Origin: Methanomethylovorans sp. PtaU1.Bin093
Lineage (GTDB): Archaea > Halobacteriota > Methanosarcinia > Methanosarcinales > Methanosarcinaceae
Direction: 5' to 3'
DNA length: 64,000 nucleotides
Assembly: GCF_002067275.1 (NCBI RefSeq)
Contig: NZ_MVQX01000060.1
Coordinates: 1 to 64,000 of the forward strand
Below are positions 1 to 22,353 of the stretch, one piece after another; position 1 is the first letter of the stretch, and each line of letters starts with the position of its first letter. Below the pieces are notes generated by a model. It saw nothing but the letters and a program-made list of their open reading frames with translations. It ran no database searches and had not been told where the DNA came from. Both the position numbers and the translations under genes were made by a program.

Positions 1-900
1 ATAATACGTATCGATCAACTGAGTGGATGAACCATCTGAAATGTAATCAAAATATCCTGGAGTGCCCATAGACCTTATGTCCACAAGAGAGACACTGGAA
101 TCATGAGCAGCTTTGAATGTAGTATTCAGGGGATCAAAGACAGCAGATGAAAGCATATCAGTGAATATCACGTCCTGTTGCAGCAGCAAACCGCTTGAAG
201 CTGCTTGCAGCAGCTCATCACTGGGACCGGCCCATGATGTAGTATTGAAGGAAGGAATGTATGTAAATTCTATACTGTCATTGAATCTGGTCGTACTTGC
301 AGCGTCTGCCAAAGCAGCACTTGGCTGCCAGCCGATATAGGCAATGCGTATTTTACCGCCCCAGGCATCAGTGATCTGAGGCTTGTTACCATAGTTCCTG
401 CACAGATATGTCAGAAGGTCTTCTGCATTCTGCATTTCTGTTGGAGTACCGATACCCATATTATTATAATAGGTATCAATTGGCTCCATTGAAGACCCAT
501 CGGATACATAGTCGAAATATTCAGGCGTTCCCAGGGACCTTATATCAACAAATGAAGTACCGTTGTCCTTTGCAGCCCTGAACGATGGACCCATTGGGTC
601 AAAGACCGCACTGGACAACATATCGGTAAAGATCACATCCTGTTCCATCAATAACCCTGAACTTGCTGCCGCAAGCAGTTCATCACTGGGGCCAGCCCAG
701 GTGGTAGTGTTGAACGAAGGCACATAAGTATACACTACGTCTGAACTGTATGCCATGGACTGGCTTGCCGCTTCAAGAGCAGCGCTCTGTGTCCAGGAAA
801 TATACATAACATTGACCTTGTTTTCGTCTGCCGCTGCTATCTGTATACTGAACAGCATAGCCAGTATACTGATCATCAGGAATAAATCTCTCCATTTCAT
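1..900 (-). CDS. Secreted CobN-like surface protein, N-terminal part (gene continues beyond the window)
   Basis: The open frame starts at the ATG ending at 900 and is still open at base 1, so only about 300 N-terminal residues are seen. Residues 1-24 form a signal peptide (a short charged start, then a hydrophobic run ending IQIAAADE). Two tandem copies of a module of about 130 residues follow, roughly residues 27-150 and 157-300. Each has the blocks FTYIPSFNTT or YTYVPSFNTT, AGPSDELL, QDVIFTDMLSSAVFDP and YFDY(V/I)SDGSS. The same module opens the neighbouring CobN-like protein (stop at 1168), so the two genes are tandem paralogues. A TATA-like stretch near 973-985 suggests that this gene may also have its own promoter. 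The chelatase core itself lies outside the window, so the CobN label is inferred from the paralogue. Confidence 0.8.
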   Translation of the reverse strand, partial: MKWRDLFLMISILAMLFSIQIAAADENKVNVMYISWTQSAALEAASQSMAYSSDVVYTYVPSFNTTTWAGPSDELLAAASSGLLMEQDVIFTDMLSSAVFDPMGPSFRAAKDNGTSFVDIRSLGTPEYFDYVSDGSSMEPIDTYYNNMGIGTPTEMQNAEDLLTYLCRNYGNKPQITDAWGGKIRIAYIGWQPSAALADAASTTRFNDSIEFTYIPSFNTTSWAGPSDELLQAASSGLLLQQDVIFTDMLSSAVFDPLNTTFKAAHDSSVSLVDIRSMGTPGYFDYISDGSSTQLIDTYY

Positions 901-1065
901 AGTACCATCCCTTTAAAAAAGTGGATTTTACTTCGCCATCCGGTCTGCAAACCCAACCCATTAGCTCCACTTTCAAAGATATATTATCCACCTTACGAGC
1001 AACACTAATAAACAAAGCTACTGAGAATTTTGATAGCATCCCCCACAAAAATGATTCGGATATCC

Positions 1066-1159
1066 TGCCCTTTAGAGAAAGGGCAGAGAGATAGCCAAAT
1101 CAATTCCCAGGCCATCGGCCTAAAAGGGGGAATAGGCACTTCCGGAAGAGAAAAGTGCC
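1066..1159. other. Three consecutive hairpins between the two cobN-like genes
   Basis: The 267-bp gap between the paralogues holds three adjacent inverted repeats. TGCCCTTT/AAAGGGCA (1066-1073 / 1078-1085) is a perfect 8-bp stem with an AGAG loop. ATTCCC/GGGAAT (1103-1108 / 1128-1133) encloses GGCC-atc-GGCC. GGCACTT/AAGTGCC (1135-1141 / 1153-1159) ends just past the upstream gene's stop. They lie in the 3' region of the 1716-residue gene and upstream of the 900 start. An RNA-processing, mRNA-stability or partial-termination role is possible. None has a clear T-run in the direction of transcription. Confidence 0.55.
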
Positions 1160-1167
1160 ATAGAATA

Positions 1168-4100
1168 TCACATTTTCCTCTTTCTCATGAATCCCAGGAA
1201 CACTGCTCCGGCTGCTCCTACCACCAGCACAATAGCAACTATATCCGAACCCGAGAAGGTAGGACTGCTGCTTTCAGGTGGAGCTACAGTTTCCTTGGTC
1301 ATCTCATACCCTTCTACATAGTTCTCAGGAGTAGACTTCGGAGCTTCGGGCGCAGGCTGGCTAAGGTCTGTGCCTGCACCAATCTGAGATTCTATAGTCT
1401 GGTTTGATGTAGAAGTTGTGGCCTGGTTAGTAATTTCCAGTTTCGGACCACTGGAACCACTGCTGCTACTGCGGCTGGAAGTGCTTTCCTTCACTGGCTC
1501 ACTGGTAGCTTCCTCTATAAGCTTCTTGTAGTCTGATGCCGTTTGTTCGTCCACCAGACCTGGTACAGACATTACGCCCTGTATGAACTCATCGAGTGAA
1601 GGATTACCACAGGTATGATGACAGCATGTGACACCATTTTCCACCACGGATTCAACATATTCTTTCACCAGGTTCTGGACCACTTCGTCCGAGGCGTCCC
1701 ATGAATCCTTCCTTACGGTCTCAAGCATCCTTGCTGTAATGGACTGATACTGATATGAATTGTCCTTAAGGAACTCATCCAGTCCAAGGTTCTGGGAATC
1801 CAGTATATATGTTTCATACATCTTGTTCCAATCCGAATCAGTTACCAGATCAGGAGTGGTGGCTTCCCATCCCCACATATATTCCACGGTCTTCATCATT
1901 TCCCTGGCACCTGCATAATCATATTCCATCATACCGGTTATCCAGTTGGGATTGAGGTACCTCGCGGTCAGCTCAGCACTGAAAGCTTCGCTTAGTGTGA
2001 TGATCTCCGGGTTATCCACGCTGGTCAGGTCAGAGATATACATCGAAGGGGATTCACCTGTGATCGATTTTACAGCAAGTCCGAGTGCTCCGAAATAGGA
2101 ATAATAGTCGTCATTGTCTATGAGACCGTAAAGGTTCGAAGTATCACTGTGTATGGCTGAATCCACTCCTCCCAGGTTCATTTCGAACACATCCTCATAA
2201 TTGACACCCCATACATCCTTCCCGTATACGTTGGACATGCGGGATATGTACAGGTCCGCAACTTCTGAAGAATTCTCCCAGGTATTGCTTGCCTCCACTG
2301 CTTCGGAAACACCAGTACCATAAGTACCTGTGGCCTCACTGAATACCCTGGACATAGAAACATTATGTGCAATGCTTTCATTATATCCTCCTTCCAGCAT
2401 TGCATCTTCTATTGCAAGTGAATTCCATCTAACATAGTTGGTCTCATTTGTTTCATTGAGCTGTGCAACCATGCGGACTGCCGTATCCATAAGTTCGATC
2501 TGGTATGGGAAGGTGTCACGGTAAAGTCCCGATGTTGTGAGCAGCACATCGATTCTCGGATGTGTCATCTCTTCCTGCGGGATAACTTTAAATCCTGTTA
2601 TCCTTCCGCTAGTCCTTTCCAGTTCCACACCCAGAAGAGCATAGATCTGTGCTTCCATAAGACCTTCATGTCGCATTGTTTCCACAGACCACATGACAAA
2701 GGCTACTTTGTTGGGATATGTGCCATTCGCAGCATAGTAGTTTTCAAGCCAGGCGTCTATGATGGCATCTCCCATGGCTTCAGTTTCTTCGTCAGGGATA
2801 GTTCTCTGGTCAAAGCTGTAGAAGTTCTTGCCAGTGGGCAATGCGCCCGGATTGCGGATAGGATCATTGCCTGTACCAGGTTCTATGTATTCAGCATTAA
2901 GTGCCCTTAATGTCTGGTCGATCTCACGAGTTGTCTGGGCCAGATCATCTGCATACTGCAGCGCCAGTTCAAGATCAGCCGTGATATTGGCGTTTGTAAG
3001 CCCAAGTACCTCCACCTGAGCAGTAGAAACATTCGTTGCATTCAGCAGGGTAGCGTTCAAAAGCAATGTTGCATCCGACTCTGCCTCTGATCTCCAGTCG
3101 TCCTCGGTTCCGTTAGCTTTAACCAGCACATTATAGATGTGATCACTGAAATCATCACCCAGCATGGACCTTACCATAGACACAAGCTTCTCTCCATCAG
3201 GTGCCACACCAAAGACATGGAGACCGTACGGAATGAGCTCTAATCTCATATCTTCGAGATATTCTTCCAGCACGCTATCCAGGAAGTTCTCAAAGTCGTC
3301 ATCTGTCATATTATACAGTTCACCAGTTGAAACTCCCAGATCCTCTGCAAGGCTGAGATTACCGTAAAGTTGTATCGTGCTGTTACGATAGAGTACCATC
3401 ATTCCAGCTTCATTGTCACTTTTTGCATCCTGATAGTTATGGATCTTCTCGCTCATTGTGGCAAGATCGCCATATAGACCTGCTTCGATGATCGGAGGAG
3501 TAAGGTGATCTATTATGACAGCATTGCCTCTGCGCTTTGCCTGTGTACCTTCTCCCACATTGTCCATGATATACGGGTAGACCACAGGGGTTTCAGCTAC
3601 CATGATAGACGGATAGTCATATCTCCACAGACCAACTTCGTTGCCCGGGAGCCATTCCTGTGTACCGTGAGTACCAAAGTGTATCATGGCATCTGCATCG
3701 TATATGTCGTTGATCCAGAAATATGTCGCAAGATACTGGTGTGTGGGCGGTATTGAGGAATTATGATATATAAGAGACTCATCGGAAAGTCCTGCCCTGG
3801 TTGGCTGGGGTATGAAATTGACATTTCCAAGCTGGATAGTAGGTATTACAAAGTACTTTCCACTTCTGTTCTCATAGGTCATGACGTCACCGGGAGCTTC
3901 CCCCCATGTGTCCTCTACTTCGGTGCGCACGCTCTGTGGCAATGTTTCGTACCATTCAAGATATTCATCTACAGGCAGAAGTGTTACGTATCCGGACTGC
4001 ACGACCTTCTCAAGCTCACCGGGTGCCCATGTACCCACATTCCTGCTTTCAATGAACAGATCTATGAACTCACTACCGTTTGGAACACTGCCGTTTCCTA

Positions 4101-6318
4101 TATTGTATCCTGCAGCCTGCATGTCTTCCAGCAGCAGAGTAAAGCTTGAACCGATATCCAGGTAACTGGCACCAATGTCGTTCTTGCCACCCTCGTGGTT
4201 GTAGTAAAGGATAGTGATCTTCTTGTCAGCATTTGTTTCTCTTCCAAGTTCTGCCCATGCAATGGCCCTGTCGCATAGCCATTCTACCTGACACTCCAGA
4301 GGTTCATAGTAATACTGCTCTGTTGCTTCGTCCTGCACCCTTCCGGCTAACCAGATATAATCGGTAAGCCCGTCTATTTCAGGCTGTGTTACCTGATATG
4401 GAATAGATGTACTGCTTAGTCCCAGTACACTTTCATTAAATTCATCCGGTGTCTGGTAATAATCCTGTATAGCTTTGATCACAGGTACATTGTACTTTTG
4501 AAGATATTCGATTCCTTTTTCATGGTCATTATAGTTTAGATAGAAACCTTTTACCGAGATTATTGAATCAACTATCACTTCACCGTTCATGGTGAAGTAA
4601 TCCACATCATCCTCACATACTGCATAGGTGGTGTAGATCACATTGCATCCCCTTGATTCAAGCTCTCTGATGATCGCGTCCTCAGAATTGTATTCTATAG
4701 GGGTCTTACCCAGTCTATTACCGATTATTCCGATCGTAGGAGCTGATGCATTGTAACCGTGGTCTGCATACCATGCCAGATATTCGGTACTGTTGGCAAA
4801 GGTTCTTGGGAAGGCATCCGGATGATAGATCCCATCATCCGGAATAGTTGGCTCAGCTGCAACAGAGTGCTCAATATAGACATTCTCAAGGGTAGCTCCG
4901 ATGCAACGGATCCAGTTCTCCATATTGCTGTATCCGTCATTGAAGAGATAATCTGTCATTGCATCGTATGGAGGATTGGCCATGTCTATGGTGGCTATGC
5001 CATACACATCCGCCAGCATACCGAACATTCCGATCTGTGCACCGTTGTTCTTTGCAGCAAGGAGCTTGTCTTTTATCTGAGGAAGTTCGTTGGCTCCCAC
5101 CATGTATAACATAATCACATCTTCATTGGTGATATCAATAGAACTGTTTATGGCTTCTCCACCTGTCATCACATTGACATTGAAACGGTCGGTGATCACT
5201 GTTCTTTCAGCAAGCACCTGCTCCATATAATATACACTGGTGTCCGAATTGATGATGTAAGTAATATTCACTTTCTCTTGCAAGACCGCTGGTACGGCAA
5301 TCGCTTGCCCTGCAAAGGCACCGGAGAACTTCTGGCCCATGAACTTCAGCATGTTGCCCATGTTGGTCTCTCCACCCTGCACCCAGTATCTTTCGATATC
5401 AGTGTAATTACCAGAATAGAGATCTACATTTGACAGAGTGATGTTCTCAGAAAGATTGTAACCTATGACCATTGCACCACTGGCTTTGGCAGCGTTTATA
5501 CTGGTGACCCAGTTACTAACAGTAGCTTCATCCCTGGATTCAATGAATATCATGGAATACTCGGAGAAGTCAAGGTCCTGCGGTACTGTTTCGCTCCTTG
5601 AAATAACGGTCGTACTTAGTTCTGAGGATATATCTGATGCAGCCGCTGCACTATTAAGGGCAGCAGTATTAACATCCGTGCCCAGGACGAACAGGAACTT
5701 CACATCTCCACTTCCAAAAGAGCTACCACCTGTTGAACTGTTGTCAGTTGAACTATCATCGGTGGAGCTTTCATTGCTATCAATGATCTCAGAAAGGCTA
5801 CTGTATTCTGTTGCAAGATATATGAGCAGGTTCTCTGCATTTGTGAGCCCATCACCGGTTGTGCCCATACTGTTGTAGTAAGTGCAGATAGTATCGTTGC
5901 CATCACCATCCGAAACATAATCAAAATATGAAGGTGCACTGCTTGTACGTATGCTCAGCAATGAAGCACCATTGTCGTGTGCTGCCTGCAGGGTGGCATT
6001 TACTGCTCCATTGTTGGAATTGTAGACCTTACTGCCTACCATATCACAGAATATGACATCCTGAGTTCCTAAAAATCCGCTTCCAACCGCAGAGAGCAGT
6101 TCATCGCTTGCAGAATATGAAGCATTGTATGCTGGAATATATGTGAAATCTATATATGCGCTGTACACATTTGTCTGACTTGCAGACTGTAACGCATCAC
6201 TTGGCGTGTACGCGATGTAAGTTATGTTTATTTTCTCTCCGGCTGCCGATACCACTGTTGTTAAGGATGTCAACAACAATACACTTAATACTAATGTAAG
6301 TACATATTTTCGTTGCAT
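1168..6318 (-). CDS. Giant secreted, membrane-anchored CobN/magnesium-chelatase H-like protein
   Basis: This protein has 1716 residues from the ATG at 6318, chosen because a GGAGG ribosome-binding site sits just upstream; an in-frame start at 6390 lacks one. Residues 1-25 are a signal peptide. A module shared with the paralogue follows, then an Asp/Ser-rich linker near 181-200. The CobN signature blocks HFGTHGTQEWLPG (about 876-888) and YPYIMDNVGEGTQAKRRG (about 913-930) mark the chelatase large-subunit fold. Near 1562 there is a Cys/His cluster, CCHHTCGNP. A Ser-rich linker near 1610 and a final transmembrane helix ending FMRKRKM anchor it, with the body outside the cell. Cytosolic CobN inserts cobalt into hydrogenobyrinate diamide with ATP-using CobS/CobT. 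None of that machinery is nearby, and ATP is not expected outside the cell, so the exact reaction is unknown. It is annotated by fold only. Confidence 0.85.
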   Translation of the reverse strand: MQRKYVLTLVLSVLLLTSLTTVVSAAGEKINITYIAYTPSDALQSASQTNVYSAYIDFTYIPAYNASYSASDELLSAVGSGFLGTQDVIFCDMVGSKVYNSNNGAVNATLQAAHDNGASLLSIRTSSAPSYFDYVSDGDGNDTICTYYNSMGTTGDGLTNAENLLIYLATEYSSLSEIIDSNESSTDDSSTDNSSTGGSSFGSGDVKFLFVLGTDVNTAALNSAAAASDISSELSTTVISRSETVPQDLDFSEYSMIFIESRDEATVSNWVTSINAAKASGAMVIGYNLSENITLSNVDLYSGNYTDIERYWVQGGETNMGNMLKFMGQKFSGAFAGQAIAVPAVLQEKVNITYIINSDTSVYYMEQVLAERTVITDRFNVNVMTGGEAINSSIDITNEDVIMLYMVGANELPQIKDKLLAAKNNGAQIGMFGMLADVYGIATIDMANPPYDAMTDYLFNDGYSNMENWIRCIGATLENVYIEHSVAAEPTIPDDGIYHPDAFPRTFANSTEYLAWYADHGYNASAPTIGIIGNRLGKTPIEYNSEDAIIRELESRGCNVIYTTYAVCEDDVDYFTMNGEVIVDSIISVKGFYLNYNDHEKGIEYLQKYNVPVIKAIQDYYQTPDEFNESVLGLSSTSIPYQVTQPEIDGLTDYIWLAGRVQDEATEQYYYEPLECQVEWLCDRAIAWAELGRETNADKKITILYYNHEGGKNDIGASYLDIGSSFTLLLEDMQAAGYNIGNGSVPNGSEFIDLFIESRNVGTWAPGELEKVVQSGYVTLLPVDEYLEWYETLPQSVRTEVEDTWGEAPGDVMTYENRSGKYFVIPTIQLGNVNFIPQPTRAGLSDESLIYHNSSIPPTHQYLATYFWINDIYDADAMIHFGTHGTQEWLPGNEVGLWRYDYPSIMVAETPVVYPYIMDNVGEGTQAKRRGNAVIIDHLTPPIIEAGLYGDLATMSEKIHNYQDAKSDNEAGMMVLYRNSTIQLYGNLSLAEDLGVSTGELYNMTDDDFENFLDSVLEEYLEDMRLELIPYGLHVFGVAPDGEKLVSMVRSMLGDDFSDHIYNVLVKANGTEDDWRSEAESDATLLLNATLLNATNVSTAQVEVLGLTNANITADLELALQYADDLAQTTREIDQTLRALNAEYIEPGTGNDPIRNPGALPTGKNFYSFDQRTIPDEETEAMGDAIIDAWLENYYAANGTYPNKVAFVMWSVETMRHEGLMEAQIYALLGVELERTSGRITGFKVIPQEEMTHPRIDVLLTTSGLYRDTFPYQIELMDTAVRMVAQLNETNETNYVRWNSLAIEDAMLEGGYNESIAHNVSMSRVFSEATGTYGTGVSEAVEASNTWENSSEVADLYISRMSNVYGKDVWGVNYEDVFEMNLGGVDSAIHSDTSNLYGLIDNDDYYSYFGALGLAVKSITGESPSMYISDLTSVDNPEIITLSEAFSAELTARYLNPNWITGMMEYDYAGAREMMKTVEYMWGWEATTPDLVTDSDWNKMYETYILDSQNLGLDEFLKDNSYQYQSITARMLETVRKDSWDASDEVVQNLVKEYVESVVENGVTCCHHTCGNPSLDEFIQGVMSVPGLVDEQTASDYKKLIEEATSEPVKESTSSRSSSSGSSGPKLEITNQATTSTSNQTIESQIGAGTDLSQPAPEAPKSTPENYVEGYEMTKETVAPPESSSPTFSGSDIVAIVLVVGAAGAVFLGFMRKRKM

Positions 6319-6334
6319 GTTATCCTCCGATAAC
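6319..6334 (-). promoter_or_regulatory. Hairpin presenting the cobN-like Shine-Dalgarno in its loop
   Basis: On the minus strand GTTATC-GGAG-GATAAC directly abuts the ATG of the 1716-residue protein. The perfect 6-bp stem has a 4-nt loop that is exactly the GGAG ribosome-binding core. Such an arrangement can present or occlude the site, so it may tune translation of the chelatase-like protein relative to the upstream operon genes. Confidence 0.6.
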
Positions 6335-6343
6335 GTGTGCTGA

Positions 6344-6382
6344 GCACTTCGGATACATTGCTTGGCGGCGGTACCGAAGTGC
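6344..6382 (-). promoter_or_regulatory. Long hairpin in the DUF2149-cobN spacer
   Basis: GCACTTCGG (6344-6352) and CCGAAGTGC (6374-6382) pair perfectly over 9 bp. The stem can extend by TAC/GTA past one bulged base, to about 12 bp. It lies in the 116-bp gap between the small channel gene and the giant gene, about 26 bases upstream of the start. The purine-poor loop and the absence of a T-run argue against a simple terminator. An RNA-processing or stability element separating small-subunit and giant-protein expression is more likely. Confidence 0.55.
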
Positions 6383-6434
6383 CCGCTCATTCAATATCCT
6401 TTTTCTTTTGTTTTACTCCACTTTTTCGAATCGA

Positions 6435-6797
6435 TCAAGTAGTAGTCTTGTTTCCATCATCCGGCACATACACAACTCTGCCATCCGCCAGTTTGTATGC
6501 GGTGCCCAGGACATCACCAGTGCCTCCCCCTATCTGGTCAGTGAGGTTCATCACTTCAATGGGCTGCCCTTGCTCTTTTATAATGATCTTCATATCCTCC
6601 TGACCGGGATTCTTCACGATGGTTATGTCTTCAGTGGGGCTTAGCAGTTCAGGCATCTGGTATGACATAACCAGTGCCAGCATCAGAGCCACGGCAAAAA
6701 CCATGGCTGTATCGAAAAGGTTAGCAACCCCTTCAAGAGGATTCCTTTCCTCTTCATCGTGTAACAGACCGGTCCGTCGGTAACGTCTCTGCCTCAT
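6435..6797 (-). CDS. DUF2149 family membrane protein, ExbD-like partner
   Basis: This is a 120-residue protein with a basic, Arg-rich cytoplasmic start (MRQRRYRR). It has one transmembrane helix at about 29-47 (FDTAMVFAVALMLALVM), then an outside domain of about 70 residues. The Asp at the head of the helix resembles the ion-binding Asp of ExbD/TolR. The start overlaps the stop of the ExbB-like gene by 4 bp, so the two are translationally coupled, as expected for subunits of one complex. I recognise the family as DUF2149, which sits beside CobN-like genes in methanogens. The ExbD role is inferred from topology and neighbours. Confidence 0.75.
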   Translation of the reverse strand: MRQRRYRRTGLLHDEEERNPLEGVANLFDTAMVFAVALMLALVMSYQMPELLSPTEDITIVKNPGQEDMKIIIKEQGQPIEVMNLTDQIGGGTGDVLGTAYKLADGRVVYVPDDGNKTTT

Positions 6798-7417
6798 ACT
6801 TTAGCCTCGATGGTATCAAGTATATAGTCAATATCTGCCATATCCTGCCAATACCATCTCTTCCTTATCTGAGTAAGTATGTAGGCCACGCTGCTGGCAA
6901 AAAGACCTACAACAGTAGTGGCAAAGGCGATCATCAGGTTATGTGCAAGCTGTACAACATCTCCCTGCGATAATGCTACAAGTGCAGGGCCCAGAGGTAT
7001 GAGCGTACCCATCAGTCCCAGCATCGGCGCTATATTTGTGATGATACGGGTCTGCTCCAGCCGCTTGGCCATTTTGATCTCATATTCCTGAGAGACCCAT
7101 TCTATGGCAGGGATCCTGTCCTGTTCCAGATGAACAGCTGCGGCATTTGAGAAAGCAGTGACTATATAGTTCTGCTTTATTTTTCTTAAAGCATCAGCTG
7201 CGGCTTTAAAATTAGATCCCTTTACATGGTTTTGCACGGTAAAGCAGGTACTTTCCAGATTCTCAATATCCCTGTTCCTCTTCGCATACTCTGAAAGGAA
7301 TTCCCCGATCAGTATAAGGGACAACAATGATAGTGCCACTAACAGGATGATCACAGGGTAAAGCAAAGAAGCAGAAAATGTATTCATTATGCTATTGATC
7401 ACAGCGAACAGGCTCAT
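6794..7417 (-). CDS. MotA/TolQ/ExbB proton channel family protein
   Basis: This 207-residue protein has three transmembrane helices, at about 17-40, 122-147 and 160-183. The second and third follow the TolQ/ExbB signature region (IAPMLGLMGTLIPLGPAL, then MIAFATTVVGLFAS). A long cytoplasmic segment lies between helices 1 and 2. ExbB-type proteins form ion channels that turn proton or sodium flow into mechanical work on a partner protein. Bacteria use them to reach across the outer membrane, which this archaeon lacks, so the client is probably the adjacent surface CobN-like protein. It begins 2 bp after the DUF2162 gene and overlaps the DUF2149 gene. Confidence 0.85.
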   Translation of the reverse strand: MSLFAVINSIMNTFSASLLYPVIILLVALSLLSLILIGEFLSEYAKRNRDIENLESTCFTVQNHVKGSNFKAAADALRKIKQNYIVTAFSNAAAVHLEQDRIPAIEWVSQEYEIKMAKRLEQTRIITNIAPMLGLMGTLIPLGPALVALSQGDVVQLAHNLMIAFATTVVGLFASSVAYILTQIRKRWYWQDMADIDYILDTIEAKV

Positions 7418-7419
7418 TT

Positions 7420-8091
7420 TTATTCACCTTTAAAAGTATTGATGACATACCCGCAGGCTACGATACCGGTCATTATCAGCAGGGGTACTATGTGAAGTTC
7501 CCCTCCGGTTTCGGGGATCTGGAGCTGCCTGGATTTTATGTAAGCTGGTACGAGCATGGAACCAAGCAGGTAGAATATACCCAGGAACATCATCACAGCT
7601 CCAAGGTCTTCCGGTGTGCGGTGCATTTTTCTGAATATCCAGCTTGAAGATACGACTGTGAAGAAGAAGACAAAACCTACTAAAGCTCCTATCCTGAAAC
7701 CACTCCATCCGAGAGTGGAGGCAAGTATCATGCAGGACACGAACAGCGCGGTGAGGCATACGGGACATGGCACTGAGATGAAAAGGAAAGTGTGCCTTGA
7801 CACATCATGTCCACATGACCATTTTTTCTGGGTATATATTCCTGCACCTATGAGGAGCAAGGCCACAACAACGTGCAGAGTCATGCCCATGCTGGTCATC
7901 ATGTCCAGCCTGGACTGGTCCACAAGTCCTATAAGTCCGCCAAGAATTACGGAAATGACAAAGTAACTTGCAGCAATGATCAACACATCTCTTCTGCAGA
8001 TGTTGGAAAAACCACACCCTACACCCGTTTTCAGGGCAAATATCATTATTCCCAACAGGATGCCAACAACTATAGCATAAACAGAATTCAT
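7420..8091 (-). CDS. DUF2162 family polytopic membrane protein, putative transporter
   Basis: This 223-residue protein has about six hydrophobic helices (near 3-20, 33-55, 68-86, 102-124, 130-150, 160-180) and a last one near 200-217. Two Cys motifs stand out: GVGCGFSNIC at about 24-33, and VPCPVC in the middle. The second recalls the Pro-Cys-Pro motif of RcnA/NicO nickel-cobalt permeases, a weak resemblance. It is the first gene of the leftward operon, with a GGAG site upstream. With ExbB-like and CobN-like neighbours, transport of a metal or metal complex is plausible, but the substrate is not known. Confidence 0.7.
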   Translation of the reverse strand: MNSVYAIVVGILLGIMIFALKTGVGCGFSNICRRDVLIIAASYFVISVILGGLIGLVDQSRLDMMTSMGMTLHVVVALLLIGAGIYTQKKWSCGHDVSRHTFLFISVPCPVCLTALFVSCMILASTLGWSGFRIGALVGFVFFFTVVSSSWIFRKMHRTPEDLGAVMMFLGIFYLLGSMLVPAYIKSRQLQIPETGGELHIVPLLIMTGIVACGYVINTFKGE

Positions 8092-8176: not shown

Positions 8177-8550
8177 ACTTAGACATATGAAAACTTAAAA
8201 CTGATGTTCGTTCAGTTTTTAATTTCACATACATATTTTAATGCTACATACGTTTTTCATTTAGATAATAACTGGCACTACTTAAGCCTTCTTATATTTT
8301 TCGGCAACAATAGATGTAACATAAAATATATTAATTAGGTAAACATACAAAATAAGCCTAAAAGTGTACGATAAAAAGTTTCAATAGCCAAGGTAACATC
8401 TAAAATAATATTTTCTGTAGTCCCGTGAAGAACTGAAAATCTATTTAGACCAACTATGAAAAAAGAAGTAGTTAAATTACTTTCAGTTGAGCACACTTAG
8501 TTTAGCAAGTATGCTGAACAAATCAAAATAAAGAAAAAAAGGAAAGAGAT
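8177..8550. other. AT-rich intergenic region without a gene
   Basis: Together with the promoter this is a gap of about 460 bp between the S27ae stop and the DUF2162 start. It holds a hairpin AAAACTGA / TCAGTTTT (8197-8204 / 8212-8219, 7-nt loop), which could end leftward transcription of the ribosomal cluster because the minus strand reads into T residues. I see no convincing small gene in either strand. Confidence 0.5.
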
Positions 8551-17348: not shown

Positions 17349-18791
17349 TTGCACTTATCTAGAAGTAAAGTGCTTTTCCGGGATATGTACTGTCACCTTA
17401 CCGACCCGGCAATAAAGAATATAGCTGTTCTTGACATGACACATGGCGGCGTTATCATTGCCCGCAAGCTCAAAGAGCTGGGCTTTAATGTGACAGGTGT
17501 GGATGTTTATGGAACGCTTTCTTCTGAACAATGCTATGCTTTGGGTATAGATGGTATATGGGTGGCAGAAAAGAACTGCTCTATTGAGGAGCCGGACCTT
17601 ATAATAAGCCCTGTTCACCTTCATCCCGATCATATTATGCTTCATCTGGCCGAAGAAAAACATGTTCCCGTAATATCTCATCACAGAGCTGTTGGAGAGA
17701 TCCTGACAATTAAATATGAAAGTGATCATCCACTCATGATCGAGGTCACAGGCACCAAGGCAAAGACCAGTACTGCTTCCCTGCTTGCTGATATGATCTC
17801 AAGGGAGCGTATTGTTGTGCTGCATACTTCCAGAGGACTGGAGCTGTGGGAAGATGGTGTGTGCGAGGTGATCCATAAAGGTCTTAGCATTGCTCCGGGT
17901 AGTATCCTCGATGCAATGGATATTGCAGGATCTATCGGAAGGAAAATAGATGCGTATATTTTCGAGATATCACTGGGAGTTACAGGATATGGGAACGTTG
18001 GCATCATCACCACCCTTGACATGGATTACATGATAGCAGGCAAAACATCCGTGGCAAGTGAGGCAAAGGTAAGGTCTCTGCTAAACTATTCTTCAAAAGC
18101 ACATATTATACTCAATGAGAACTGCAGGAAAGCATTAGAACAGTTGGATAGATCCCTTGGAACAGAAAACATAACCACCTTCTGCATTATGGGAAATGAA
18201 GAAAGTAGAACTTCAGATGCTGACCATTTTCTGAACATGCAAAAAAACAGTTTCTCCATCACAACTGGGAAAGGATATATCGAATTATTCCCTGCAGATG
18301 GATATGATGCAAGGTCATACATCACAGCTTTTGCTGCATCCTGTGTCACAGCCCTTGAAATAGATGTACCGCTGGAAAATATAAAAAATACCATCCAACA
18401 GTTCAGGGGTTTACAGGGCAGGATGCAGGAGATGATACAAGAAGACATTAGTATCCTTGATAACTCCAATTCCGGGATGGACATCGTTTCAGTGGAAAAA
18501 GCACTGGACCTGAGTTTAAAAAGAAAGCAAAGGGTTATCATGGTGCTTGGCGAAGAGGCTGCACAGGTATGCGAAGGACTGCCGCCGCAGGGTGTTGCCG
18601 ACCTGATCAGCCGCAGGCTGGAGGATATGGATGAACTGATACTGGTAGGCGAGAGGATGAAGCCCCTGGCAACCGGAAATATCCACTATGCAGAAAGCTT
18701 GGATGTGGGGAGAATGTATGCAATGGGAATTGCCAGAAAAAAGAGAGCTTATGAAGTTATTGTTGCTCTGTGTGTGAAGTGCTTCCGCTGA
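17349..18791 (+). CDS. cfbE: Coenzyme F430 synthetase, Mur-ligase-like (CfbE)
   Basis: This 480-residue enzyme has the Mur ligase fold, with an ATP-binding P-loop at VTGTKAKTST (about 133-142) and DNSNSG near 376 in the C-terminal ligase domain. CfbE uses ATP to close the six-membered carbocyclic ring, giving F430, the nickel cofactor of methyl-coenzyme M reductase. The start is TTG at 17349 with AGGT upstream. It lies directly before cfbD, cfbC and cfbB, which makes the F430 role much more likely than a cell-wall role. A 130-bp gap with a hairpin and promoter separates it from cfbD. Confidence 0.88.
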   Translation: MHLSRSKVLFRDMYCHLTDPAIKNIAVLDMTHGGVIIARKLKELGFNVTGVDVYGTLSSEQCYALGIDGIWVAEKNCSIEEPDLIISPVHLHPDHIMLHLAEEKHVPVISHHRAVGEILTIKYESDHPLMIEVTGTKAKTSTASLLADMISRERIVVLHTSRGLELWEDGVCEVIHKGLSIAPGSILDAMDIAGSIGRKIDAYIFEISLGVTGYGNVGIITTLDMDYMIAGKTSVASEAKVRSLLNYSSKAHIILNENCRKALEQLDRSLGTENITTFCIMGNEESRTSDADHFLNMQKNSFSITTGKGYIELFPADGYDARSYITAFAASCVTALEIDVPLENIKNTIQQFRGLQGRMQEMIQEDISILDNSNSGMDIVSVEKALDLSLKRKQRVIMVLGEEAAQVCEGLPPQGVADLISRRLEDMDELILVGERMKPLATGNIHYAESLDVGRMYAMGIARKKRAYEVIVALCVKCFR

Positions 18792-18814
18792 TAATATGGA
18801 GCTTGTTACATAAA

Positions 18815-18840
18815 ACAGCCCTTTTATATCAGAAGGCTGT
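18815..18840 (+). terminator. Hairpin after cfbE
   Basis: ACAGCC / GGCTGT (18815-18820 / 18835-18840) can form a 6-bp stem, extended by TT/AA past one bulge, between cfbE and cfbD. It may stop or weaken read-through from cfbE. Confidence 0.4.
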
Positions 18841-18867
18841 AGTATAGTGCAAAAGTAGCATTTGAAT

Positions 18868-18887
18868 AAGTATAAAAAATCATACTT
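18868..18887 (+). promoter_or_regulatory. cfbDCB promoter with a palindrome over the TATA-like box
   Basis: AAGTAT-aaaaaatc-ATACTT (18868-18873 / 18882-18887) is a symmetric site containing the TATA-like TATAAAAAA, 35-55 bp upstream of cfbD. A protein bound here would block TBP, so this is a candidate operator for F430 gene control. Confidence 0.45.
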
Positions 18888-18921
18888 CTTTAAGTAAATA
18901 TCATAACGATCATATGACACC

Positions 18922-20061
18922 ATGGAGAATAGCATGGCTGCGAATGACATATCTATAATACACCCCAGACCGAGTTCGATAGTTGCTGCCCTGTACACCC
19001 TTAGGGACCTGAATGTGGATGTTGCCATATTGCATGGCCCTCCGGGATGCTCTTTTAAGCATGCGAGACTGCTCGAAGAAGACGGGATACACGTAGTTAC
19101 CACGGCCCTGGATGAGAACGGTTTCGTTTTCGGAGGGCGTCGGGAGCTTTCCTCTGTGCTTGAAAAGGTCAATGAGATGTTCCATCCGAAGTTGATAGGC
19201 GTAGTAGGGACATGCGCCAGTATGATCATTGGAGAAGAACTGCATGAGCCGGTAATGGATGCAGATCTGGACGTGCCTGTCATAGAGGTTGAGGTCCATG
19301 CAGGATATGCAAATAATACAAAAGGAGTGCTGCTCACTCTGGAATCGGCGCTGGATATAGGTGTTATCGACAGGGAAGAGTTCGAGCGCCAGAAAGTGCT
19401 CCTGGAAGAGGCAACGGAGGTTGAAAAGCGCCACGGTGCAGCCAGCAAGGAATACCTGGCACCTTCAAGAGGAGACCTGAAGTACAAGGTGGCACAGCGT
19501 ATCATAGAACTGCTGAAGGAAGGCAAGAAAGGCCTTGTGATAATGAACGCCAAGAAGGAGACTGGCTATATGTTCGCTGATATCAATGTCGCTGTTCACG
19601 AAGTCGCATCCCGGCTGGGAGTATCTGGAAATGTGGTGAACATGGCAAACCTGGATGAGTCACTCGGCCTGCCAAGGGTAAGGGACCATGCCCGCAATAT
19701 CATGCACGACCTTAAGGAAAAAGGTGTTCAGATCCACGATATCACAGGAGGACTGGACGAATATCCTATTGCAGGTCATGTGGTGGACGAACTCATAGCT
19801 AAGAAATATGCAGATCATGATTTCGCTGTGATCACCGGTGTTCCTCATGCGATACCCATGGACCACATCAGCCACATGGAGATCATTTCGGTTACGAACG
19901 GTCCCCGGCAGGTGGTACCCCTGAAGGAAATGGGTCACAGGCACGTTGTTGTGGAGATAGACCTGCACCCAAAGACCCTGGGGGTGAACCATATCGTAGA
20001 GTCGGAACTTGGTGCCACGCTGCGGGAAATGGCAAAAGAGACGCTTGATTGTTCCGCATGA
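18922..20061 (+). CDS. cfbD: Ni-sirohydrochlorin a,c-diamide reductive cyclase, NifD-like subunit (CfbD)
   Basis: This is a 379-residue protein, shorter than nitrogenase NifD. Conserved Cys lie in [12 protein letters not shown] (C43) and [14 protein letters not shown] (C98), where it holds a 4Fe-4S cluster. With CfbC it performs the six-electron reduction and lactam ring closure of Ni-sirohydrochlorin diamide. The lack of NifK, NifE and NifN and the F430 neighbours exclude a nitrogenase role. The ATG at 18922 is in the expected place. Confidence 0.93.
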
Positions 20062-20071
20062 GGTGAAAAAG

Positions 20072-20866
20072 ATGGGTAACCAGAAACGTATAGCCATCTA
20101 TGGCAAGGGCGGTATCGGCAAATCGAGCACTGCATCAAATGTTGCTGCAGCATGCGCAGAGGAAGGTTACAAGGTAATGATCATCGGATGCGATCCCAAG
20201 AGCGATTCATCCATTACGCTGTTGGGCGGGAGGAGAATACCAACCATCCTGGACCTGCTTCGGCAGGGTGTGAAAGTAACGGAAGAGGACATTGTCTTCC
20301 ACGGATACAGGAATGTGAGATGTGTGGAAGTCGGCGGCCCTGAACCCGGCATTGGATGTGCAGGACGGGGCATCATCGTAGCCATCAAGACGTTAAGGGA
20401 TATGTGCAAGGAAATGGATGATATGGACCTTATCATCTACGACGTTCCCGGCGACATAGTATGCGGTGGTTTTGTGGCGCCCATAAGGAAGGGACTTGTG
20501 AACGAAGCATATGTGCTGACATCCGGAGAGTACATGCCTCTGTACGCTGCTAATAACATCTGCAAAGGTCTTCGGCAGATAGATACCCGTCTGAGTGGTG
20601 TGATCTGCAATTCCCGCAGCGTAACAAGGGAAGAAGAGATAGTGCGCAGGTTCGCCGAGGAGATCGGCAGCAAGCTGGTAGCTTTCATTCCTAAGGAACA
20701 GATCGTGCAGGACTGTGAAAGAGACGGGTTCTCTGTCATTGAAAAAGCCCCTGGTTCGGACATTGCCCATGTGTACCGCGACCTTGCCCGGGCCATCATG
20801 TCAAATTCAGATTCAGCATTGCCAACATCACTGGATGATGAAAGGTTAAGGGAGCTTACACGCTGA
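20072..20866 (+). CDS. cfbC: Reductive cyclase component, NifH-like Fe protein (CfbC)
   Basis: This 264-residue protein is the ATP-driven electron donor to CfbD. Features are the P-loop [10 protein letters not shown] (11-20), GCDPKSDS, the two cluster Cys at about C96 (GIGCAGRG) and C131 (DIVCGGF), and a switch region between them. The ATG at 20072 follows GAGGTG and comes just after the cfbD stop at 20061. A longer frame upstream overlaps cfbD and is not used. It is co-transcribed with cfbD and cfbB. Confidence 0.94.
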
Positions 20867-20871
20867 TCCAC

Positions 20872-22353
20872 ATGACCGCTGCCGTCAACATGCGTCCGAC
20901 TGTAGCCGGCGAGGAGAAACACATCCCCAGGGTGCTGATCTCTGCCGGAAGCTCGTCTTCCGGTAAGACCACTGTAACCATAGGCCTTCTGGCTGCCCTG
21001 TCAAAAGCAGGATACAAGGTGCAGCCGTTCAAAGTGGGGCTGGATTACATCGATCCCAGTTACTACTCGGAGATCACGGGACGCAGGGCCAGGAACATCG
21101 ATGGCTACCTGATGGACGAGGAGAGGGTACGCGATGTGTTCCTGCATGGGTGTGAAACGGACGAAGAGGCTGATATTGCCATTATTGAGGGTGTGCGGGG
21201 ACTGTATGAGGGCCTGGAGAGCTTAAGTGACATCGGCAGCACTGCACAGATAGCAAAGACCCTTGACTGCCCTGTCATCCTTGTACTGAACGCACGCAGC
21301 ATCACCCGTTCTGCTGCGGCTATTGTTTCAGGTTTCAAGGCGTTTGATCCGCAGGTGAACATTGCGGGTGTGATATTGAATAACATCGGTGGCCAGCGCC
21401 ATGCCAAAAAGGCAAAGGAAGCCATAGAGCATTATACCGGCGTGCCGGTGATAGGCATCATCCCCCGCAACAATGAGATGATGATCTCCATGCGCCATCT
21501 GGGACTGGTACCTGCCATAGAAGAGCGCCGCAGGTCTGCGGATTTCGATGCCAGGATCAGCACCATCCGGGATGTTATCACTGAAGGTGTGGACATTGAT
21601 CTGGTGCTGGACATTGCACGGCAGGTGGCTCCGCTTCCAATACCCACCGGTACTATATTTGTCCGCAGGGAAGTAACAGAAAAGCCGGTCATCGGCATTG
21701 CCCTGGACGAGGCGTTCAACTTCTATTATCACGACAACCTTGAGCTGCTGGAGCTTGCAGGAGCAGAACTTCGGTATTTCAGTCCGGTGCATGACGAACA
21801 CCTGCCGGACGTGGACGGGATATACATCGGCGGCGGCTATCCCGAATTGTTCGCTGCCGAGCTTGAGGCTAATGCATCCATGCGCAAGGACATAAAAGCA
21901 GCATCTGAGGCAGGACTTCCCATTTACGGGGAATGTGGTGGCCTCATGTATCTCACCAATAAGCTCACTACCGGCGTGAAGGGTAAAGGTGCATATAACA
22001 TGGCCGACATGCCCGAATCCACCCACGAGATGGTGGGCGCACTCCCCGGACATACCCTCATGGGACATAAGCGCGTGGTAAGCTACAACATCGGCTCTCT
22101 CACGCTCGATACCGTCATCGGCAAAACAGGAAACAACTTCCGTGCCCATGAATTCCACCATTCTGAGGTCACAGAACTACCCTCAGATGCCAAATTCGCC
22201 ATCAAGCTCACCCGGGGCACCGGCATCATAGATGGCTGGGACGGGCTCACAGTAAACAACACATTGGGCTGCTATGCACATTTGGTGGCAAGCTCTTATG
22301 AGGAATTCTCGAAAAGCTTTGTGGAGTTTGTGAGGGAGAAGAAAAAGGAATAG
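20872..22353 (+). CDS. cfbB: Ni-sirohydrochlorin a,c-diamide synthase (CfbB)
   Basis: This 493-residue enzyme has the CobB/CbiA fold: an N-terminal ATP domain with SAGSSSSGKTT (about 24-34) and a C-terminal glutamine amidotransferase-like domain with YGECGGLMYL. It amidates the a and c side chains of nickel sirohydrochlorin. A cobyrinate synthase (CbiA) would look similar, but the position 5 bp after cfbC argues for the F430 enzyme. The first step, nickel insertion by CfbA, is not encoded in this window. Confidence 0.9.
   Translation: MTAAVNMRPTVAGEEKHIPRVLISAGSSSSGKTTVTIGLLAALSKAGYKVQPFKVGLDYIDPSYYSEITGRRARNIDGYLMDEERVRDVFLHGCETDEEADIAIIEGVRGLYEGLESLSDIGSTAQIAKTLDCPVILVLNARSITRSAAAIVSGFKAFDPQVNIAGVILNNIGGQRHAKKAKEAIEHYTGVPVIGIIPRNNEMMISMRHLGLVPAIEERRRSADFDARISTIRDVITEGVDIDLVLDIARQVAPLPIPTGTIFVRREVTEKPVIGIALDEAFNFYYHDNLELLELAGAELRYFSPVHDEHLPDVDGIYIGGGYPELFAAELEANASMRKDIKAASEAGLPIYGECGGLMYLTNKLTTGVKGKGAYNMADMPESTHEMVGALPGHTLMGHKRVVSYNIGSLTLDTVIGKTGNNFRAHEFHHSEVTELPSDAKFAIKLTRGTGIIDGWDGLTVNNTLGCYAHLVASSYEEFSKSFVEFVREKKKE

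Follow-up and report, generated by a model that had tools for sequence, protein, structure and literature searches.

Organization of the locus

At the start of the 64,000-nucleotide stretch of Methanomethylovorans sp. PtaU1.Bin093 DNA analysed here (contig NZ_MVQX01000060.1; hereafter the window) lies a module of five genes on the minus strand, spanning positions 1-8091, that encode in order of transcription a DUF2162 protein, an ExbB-family protein, a DUF2149 protein and two CobN-fold proteins, CobN1 and CobN2 (Table 1). An initial annotation of this DNA had listed these parts, and domain profile matches place all of them, on the minus strand, where it had put them. The DUF2149 and ExbB genes overlap by 4 bp and those of ExbB and DUF2162 are separated by 2 bp; about 200 bp upstream of DUF2162 is a sequence resembling a B recognition element (BRE) and TATA box, CCGAAAAATATAAG, that is probably a promoter element. 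No Rfam riboswitch match was found in the five related loci scanned, the window itself lying outside that scan.

The source genome is 2.1 Mb and 86% complete, and among named organisms its nearest relatives are Methanomethylovorans and unclassified Methanosarcinaceae. CobN2 is truncated only by the contig end (C60) at which the window begins; it was completed via a second contig (C9), whose start is an exact match to the 75 bp at the C60 end, and the joined frame is stop-free and 1761 aa long, with three head copies and a membrane anchor at its end. The true start of CobN1 is probably M25 (6318), since homologues begin there.

Table 1. Positions of the module genes and of the CobN1 features in the window.
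Feature	Position	Strand	Support
DUF2162, predicted permease	7420..8091	minus	PF09930, E=2e-68
ExbB/TolQ/MotA-family channel protein	6794..7417	minus	PF01618, 7e-12
DUF2149 (HmuV family)	6435..6797	minus	PF09919, 4e-34
Predicted surface CobN-fold protein 1 (CobN1; HmuS clan), 1740 aa as called	1168..6390	minus	PF02514, 1139 bits
Predicted surface CobN-fold protein 2 (CobN2), N-terminal part (300 aa): signal peptide, head copies 1-2	1..900	minus	
Signal peptide of CobN1, from M25	6241..6318	minus	hydropathy 2.29, homologue starts
CobN1 head copy 1, residues 50-202	5785..6243	minus	hidden Markov model (HMM) 2e-38; model
CobN1 head copy 2, residues 227-361	5308..5712	minus	HMM 1.8e-44; model
CobN1 head copy 3, residues 370-507, canonical, aligns with HmuS head	4870..5283	minus	HMM 2.3e-45
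CobN1 neck and body, CobN/Mg-chelatase PF02514	1681..4953	minus	1134-1139 bits
CobN1 His908 (IHFGTHG), counterpart of catalytic HmuS His-538	3667..3669	minus	
CobN1 Asp1428 (LIDNDDYYSYFGA), position of HmuS His-1209	2107..2109	minus	
CobN1 CCHHTCGNP motif, residues 1589-1597	1600..1626	minus	
CobN1 C-terminal membrane anchor, RKRK tail	1171..1257	minus	hydropathy 2.73
Probable promoter element, BRE/TATA-like CCGAAAAATATAAG	8291..8304	minus	conserved in near relatives

Conservation and predicted surface location

A recurrent association of these genes is evident from a survey of 197 genomes of the phylum, which are related and not independent. CobN is found in 122 of them, DUF2149 in 64 and DUF2162 (over cut-off) in 55; all 55 genomes with DUF2162 also have DUF2149, and all 64 with DUF2149 have CobN (hypergeometric values 9e-40 and 6e-18, which given the relatedness of the genomes only exclude a casual link). 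Around 76 DUF2149 loci, some of them cut by contig ends, ExbB is found 71 times, DUF2162 56 times and CobN 50 times. The order DUF2162-ExbB-DUF2149-CobN is seen in dozens of genomes from Methanosarcinaceae, Methanothrix, Methanomicrobiales and anaerobic methanotrophic archaea of group 1 (ANME-1), including those of Methanosarcina, Methanolobus, Methanococcoides, Methanohalophilus, Methanoculleus and ANME-1; in Methanothrix the CobN gene is often found upstream or on the opposite strand. This recurrence, together with the co-occurrence of the genes, argues that the order is not due to chance. In several near-complete Methanosarcinaceae genomes (e.g. G022 and G144) the surface CobN is the sole CobN.

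In both CobN-fold proteins of the window a hydrophobic signal is found at the N-terminus, and at the C-terminus a helix with basic residues after it; their N-glycosylation sequons number 1.90 and 1.59 per 100 aa, compared to 1.03 and 0.80 in shuffled sequences. Archaeal module proteins mostly carry 1.2-2.8 sequons per 100 residues, roughly 2-3 times the shuffled expectation, and cytosolic CobN and BchH carry 0.07-0.40 per 100 aa. Because of the signal peptide, the C-terminal anchor and the sequon excess, the CobN-fold proteins are predicted to be membrane-anchored on the cell surface; the published expression and surface-proteome papers that we consulted name neither a chelatase nor CobN. The surface location had been proposed in the initial annotation, which also called for a survey of the linkage of secreted CobN, DUF2149, ExbB and DUF2162 and for which a cytosolic CobN-like protein, or channel genes not linked to it in other methanogens, would have been fatal; the sequence features instead point outside the cell, and the linkage holds among relatives.

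Relation to HmuS and CobN

The best sequence match of CobN1 in the PDB is HmuS (9d26, E=1.9e-135), followed by ChlH and CobN, and a model of CobN1 residues 50-760 (predicted local distance difference test score, pLDDT, 82) also has 9d26 as its top fold match (E=4e-13). A tree of 71 proteins, built quickly and with a program warning that long branches (e.g. Trichlorobacter with Runella) could be joined in error, places the archaeal module proteins in one clade (52 rows, 100*) that groups with HmuS and the bacterial DUF2149-linked proteins, and cytosolic CobN and BchH fall apart from it. HmuS has been shown by experiment to be an NADH-dependent heme de-chelatase, and its authors call the archaeal role unclear (EMBO J 2025, PMC12583661); in the hmu operon, hmuS is followed by genes for HmuT, an ExbB (HmuU) and a DUF2149 protein (HmuV) (PMC10434189). 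Judged from the closest structure and the tree grouping, the module is thus the archaeal, outer-membrane-free arm of HmuS-HmuU-HmuV, with which it shares a secreted, membrane-anchored CobN-fold protein encoded together with ExbB and DUF2149. The system is less distinct than the initial annotation claimed, since its secreted CobN, ExbB and DUF2149 are the HmuS-HmuU-HmuV core already known from bacteria; the parts of that interpretation that find support are the surface location, the linkage, and the tie to genes for cobalt, corrinoids or nickel in relatives described below.

The module is nonetheless a variant of the HmuS module and not simply HmuS. The archaeal proteins share with HmuS the multi-domain CobN/ChlH-type fold with head and neck, and the catalytic His-538 within HFG(T/A)HG, which reads IHFGTHG and IHLGTHG in the window proteins and is retained in 98 of 108 archaeal rows. 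HmuS binds the metal with a second ligand, His-1209 within LSLDHxxEFMGG, which is not kept: the window proteins have LIDNDDYYSYFGA and LDNDDFFQYFGG, and the position is Asp, within DNDD(Y/F), in 82 of 103 archaeal rows. The same type of Asp is found in true CobN (LDSDDYYQF) and in the protein of the Trichlorobacter B12 island, and HmuS and BchH have His. Further differences are in the neck, where the heme ligand motif His-Gly-Arg (His-254) of HmuS is replaced by KGF or KSF, and in the Met-rich insertion of HmuS, which is missing, the aligned blocks being 55 residues apart in CobN1 and about 211 apart in HmuS. The head loop of 82 among 114 canonical heads, those of the window included, has a Met shifted by one residue towards the N-terminus, which may or may not stand in for Met-79. 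HmuS has one head domain, the two window proteins have three each, and others have one to five. Near the C-terminus of the archaeal module proteins is a near-invariant CCHHTCGN motif that is absent from HmuS and cytosolic CobN and has counterparts in Trichlorobacter (ACCDHTCNN) and Runella (SCGHTTCDH). Cobaltochelatase CobN and the Mg-chelatase subunit ChlH share the fold and the catalytic His, and CobN also the DxDD motif, but they are cytosolic, work with AAA+ ATPase partners, and stand apart in the tree from the archaeal proteins, which are predicted to be extracellular.

One paralogue class has both catalytic positions replaced (FSIFS, HPMVAAYFGG; loci L079, L097, L098, L100, L144, L130, L180, L194 and L196). 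Since His-538 is gone as well as His-1209, these proteins look to be probably binding-only.

ExbB, DUF2149 and DUF2162

The ExbB-family profile matches TolQ, MotA and ExbB structures and has the conserved segments GPMLGLMGTLIP and AFATTV. DUF2149 has a single N-terminal helix with a near-invariant Asp29 in NLFD(V/A)AMVF and a short extracytoplasmic domain. The pair resembles the ExbB-ExbD-TonB energiser in combining a channel protein of the MotA/TolQ/ExbB domain family with a one-helix partner, and differs from it in that the archaeal system has neither TonB nor an outer membrane and DUF2149 has no detectable homology to ExbD. The earlier description of DUF2149 as an ExbD-like one-helix protein accordingly holds for architecture and position only, and DUF2149 was not equated with ExbD.

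DUF2162 has an invariant Cys26, His73 and Asp96 and a P-C-P-x-C motif (109 of 112) in methanogen homologues, a set of residues that could form a metal or thiol site. It stands where HmuT would be found in hmuYRSTUV and is unrelated to it (hhalign probability 0.4%, from a comparison that included only three HmuT sequences). A known transporter fold was likewise rejected for want of a PDB match, a NicO/DsbD-type likeness being seen only for the permease of Runella. An ArsR-type regulator gene lies beside DUF2162 in L059, L064, L065, L071, L092, L101 and named Methanosarcina loci, divergently oriented in Methanosarcina and on the strand of the module in one ANME-1 locus; its product is a candidate regulator of the module.

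Gene neighbours of relatives

The initial annotation had also connected the module to cobalt, corrinoid or nickel acquisition, and this connection appears among relatives. In ANME-1 the module shares an operon with CbiM-CbiQ-CbiO, CbiT, CbiL, CbiF and CbiG, and in other ANME-1 loci it follows BtuC-type ABC genes; in a further archaeal family (that of L033) it is flanked by CbiA/CobB on one side and CbiO-CbiQ-CbiM on the other, and CbiD and CbiE are close by. Among bacteria, sampled as a handful of plasmid records, a close parallel to the window is the pGLOV01 island of Trichlorobacter lovleyi, which has the four genes DUF2162-ExbB-DUF2149-CobN in identical order, next to those for CobT, BzaF and cobyric acid synthase, and encodes a CobN-fold protein with the DxDD and ACCDHTC motifs; it differs in its cobalamin-island setting, its TonB-dependent receptors, and a separate ExbB-ExbD-TonB set that adjoins the module. 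In Runella the module is of DxDD type, a NicO-like protein takes the place of its permease, and the whole lies inside hypABF/CDE; in Azospirillum a module whose CobN has the porphyrin-type Asp-His (DH) is near NikR. The DxDD type thus occurs mostly with cobalt or B12 genes and the DH type in heme settings, namely hmu and possibly one archaeal family, in a small sample that Runella and Azospirillum fit poorly. Taken together, the neighbouring genes in relatives suggest that the module serves metal-chelate acquisition generally.

Two other arrangements were observed. In family f9 (L052, L107), cytosolic CobN proteins of DH type, an ATPase of ChlID type, HemN/HutW-like radical SAM proteins and a substrate-binding protein are encoded in a cluster with ExbB-DUF2149, which is possibly an archaeal heme or porphyrin locus. 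On a plasmid of Marinobacter sp. M3C (L121, 6320-10522), a CobN without DUF2149 is found inside a corrinoid salvage operon with a TonB receptor, BtuFCD-like proteins, CobB, CobO, CobQ and BluB.

Proposed mechanism and alternatives

We propose that the module encodes a surface enzyme of chelatase fold, an ion-channel pair and a permease that together handle cobalt or corrinoid cargo, a reading to which we give a probability of roughly 50%; cobalt or corrinoids are the most likely cargo, at about even odds, with nickel second. Capture and cavity entry would proceed by analogy to HmuS, the head domains, three per window protein, capturing, on the outer side of the membrane, a metal tetrapyrrole or a chelate like it and the body taking it into its cavity. 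His908 and Asp1428, in an arrangement more like that of cobaltochelatase than that of HmuS, would then remove or exchange the metal, the CCHHTC site would accept the released metal, and DUF2162 would move it (or reducing equivalents) across the membrane. ExbB-DUF2149 would draw on the ion gradient to power conformational cycling, a task that falls to AAA+ ATPases in cytosolic CobN/ChlH. In this scheme we infer the substrate, the direction of the reaction, the coupling to energy, and the roles of DUF2162 and the CCHHTC site.

HmuU and HmuV are coupled to TonB in the literature, which also describes hmu gene sets in which HmuS was not detected (PMC10100974). The Trichlorobacter module has its own TonB energiser beside it, and therefore HmuU and HmuV may serve HmuS and not TonB; the observation suggests this, raising the question without settling it. 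Archaea have neither TonB nor an outer membrane. That the pair nevertheless accompanies the chelatase in these TonB-less organisms favours, together with the Trichlorobacter arrangement, a direct role for it in the chelatase cycle, although the specific proposal that ExbB-DUF2149 powers an extracellular CobN-fold chelatase in place of an AAA+ ATPase is tentative, with perhaps twice as much against it as for it.

Several observations weigh against the cobalt or corrinoid reading as a whole. The only relative tested by experiment, HmuS, acts on heme. Seven archaeal copies (L054, L058, L075, L109, L171, L203, L204) have the porphyrin-type His at the second position, and nine have Met there, the same nine that lack His-538. 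In Methanosarcinaceae, the family of the window, the flanking genes are housekeeping genes, so that the link to cobalt and B12 rests on other lineages. The roles given to DUF2149 and DUF2162 are guesses, because the former has no detectable ExbD homology and the latter no known fold (its AlphaFold model, all-helical with pLDDT 81, has no PDB match with E<0.1). Finally, ExbB-DUF2149 pairs also occur without CobN, beside genes for S-layer or other surface proteins, and so the pair is not a dedicated chelatase motor; the hmu sets without a detected HmuS belong here too.

The strongest alternative is that the archaea simply retain a heme (iron-porphyrin) de-chelatase or heme uptake system as in Bacteroidota. 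HmuS is the closest solved relative, the U and V partners are kept, the seven His-bearing copies would suit a porphyrin, and in the f9 family ExbB-DUF2149 and CobN of DH type are found with a gene for a radical SAM protein like HemN/HutW. Yet the window proteins lack the equivalents of His-1209 and His-Gly-Arg and have the Met-79-like Met shifted, neither HmuY nor HmuR is recurrent among the neighbours of the archaeal loci, DUF2162 is unrelated to HmuT, and the genes beside relatives are those for cobalt/B12 or nickel, which together make a heme system improbable for the window.

Only slightly less probable is that ExbB-DUF2149 is a general archaeal surface energiser, acting on S-layer or giant adhesins, and that the CobN-fold protein is a passive binder and no enzyme. 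The adjacency of pairs to an S-layer gene in Methanolobus and to giant CARDB/PQQ/beta-helix proteins in ANME-1 fits this account, as does the paralogue class without both catalytic residues; what counts against it is that the partner in most loci is CobN, with the catalytic His kept as described above, and that the permease is conserved within the operon. In the Methanolobus loci (L034, 9974-13780; L036, 9977-13842; L068, 6506-10303) the pair is directly downstream of the major S-layer gene (PF07752, E=6e-199), CobN and DUF2162 are absent, and the pair is presumably an energiser linked to the S-layer. In L050, L043, L045, L105 and L042, mostly ANME-1, it is beside giant secreted proteins with CARDB, PQQ propeller, alpha-alpha toroid/TED and NosD beta-helix domains, some near BtuF/BtuC/CbiB; the alpha-alpha toroid/TED protein has a weak match to eukaryotic cobalamin-binding proteins.

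The module could also scavenge nickel, stripping it from F430 or from nickel chelates of dead methanogens, an option we consider unlikely. Methanogens have a high nickel demand, hyp genes flank the module in Runella, and NikR is near it in Azospirillum; in the window itself, the F430 biosynthesis genes cfbE, cfbD, cfbC and cfbB (17349-22353, plus strand) are about 10 kb from the module. This proximity is probably incidental because housekeeping translation genes separate the two, for which reason the cfb cluster was set aside as a functional partner, and the archaeal operons that include metal genes carry those for cobalt/B12. An ordinary CobN subunit of the cobaltochelatase of cobalamin biosynthesis, the name given in databases, is very improbable in spite of PF02514 and the CobN-like DxDD motif, since the signal peptide, anchor and sequons put the protein outside, a topology that contradicts such a role, the scores are under every CobN/BchH equivalog cut-off, and CobS/CobT/ChlID are not among the recurrent neighbours.

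Implications

What is new here is that the archaeal proteins have a conserved operon of their own, a predicted surface site, and a cobaltochelatase-like difference from HmuS at a catalytic position. Testable questions follow, namely which metal and ligand are handled and whether the ion gradient drives the chelatase. If ExbB-DUF2149 powers the chelatase directly, HmuU and HmuV would likewise power HmuS in Bacteroidota, as opposed to the current view that they energise an outer-membrane receptor, and the role assigned to them in gut Bacteroidota is called into question. The methanogen machine would in that case act on scavenged tetrapyrroles, from which it would strip cobalt (or nickel) or in which it would exchange it. 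Tetrapyrroles of cobalt and nickel are indispensable to methanogens and ANME-1, so that the route by which they are acquired bears on methane production and oxidation.

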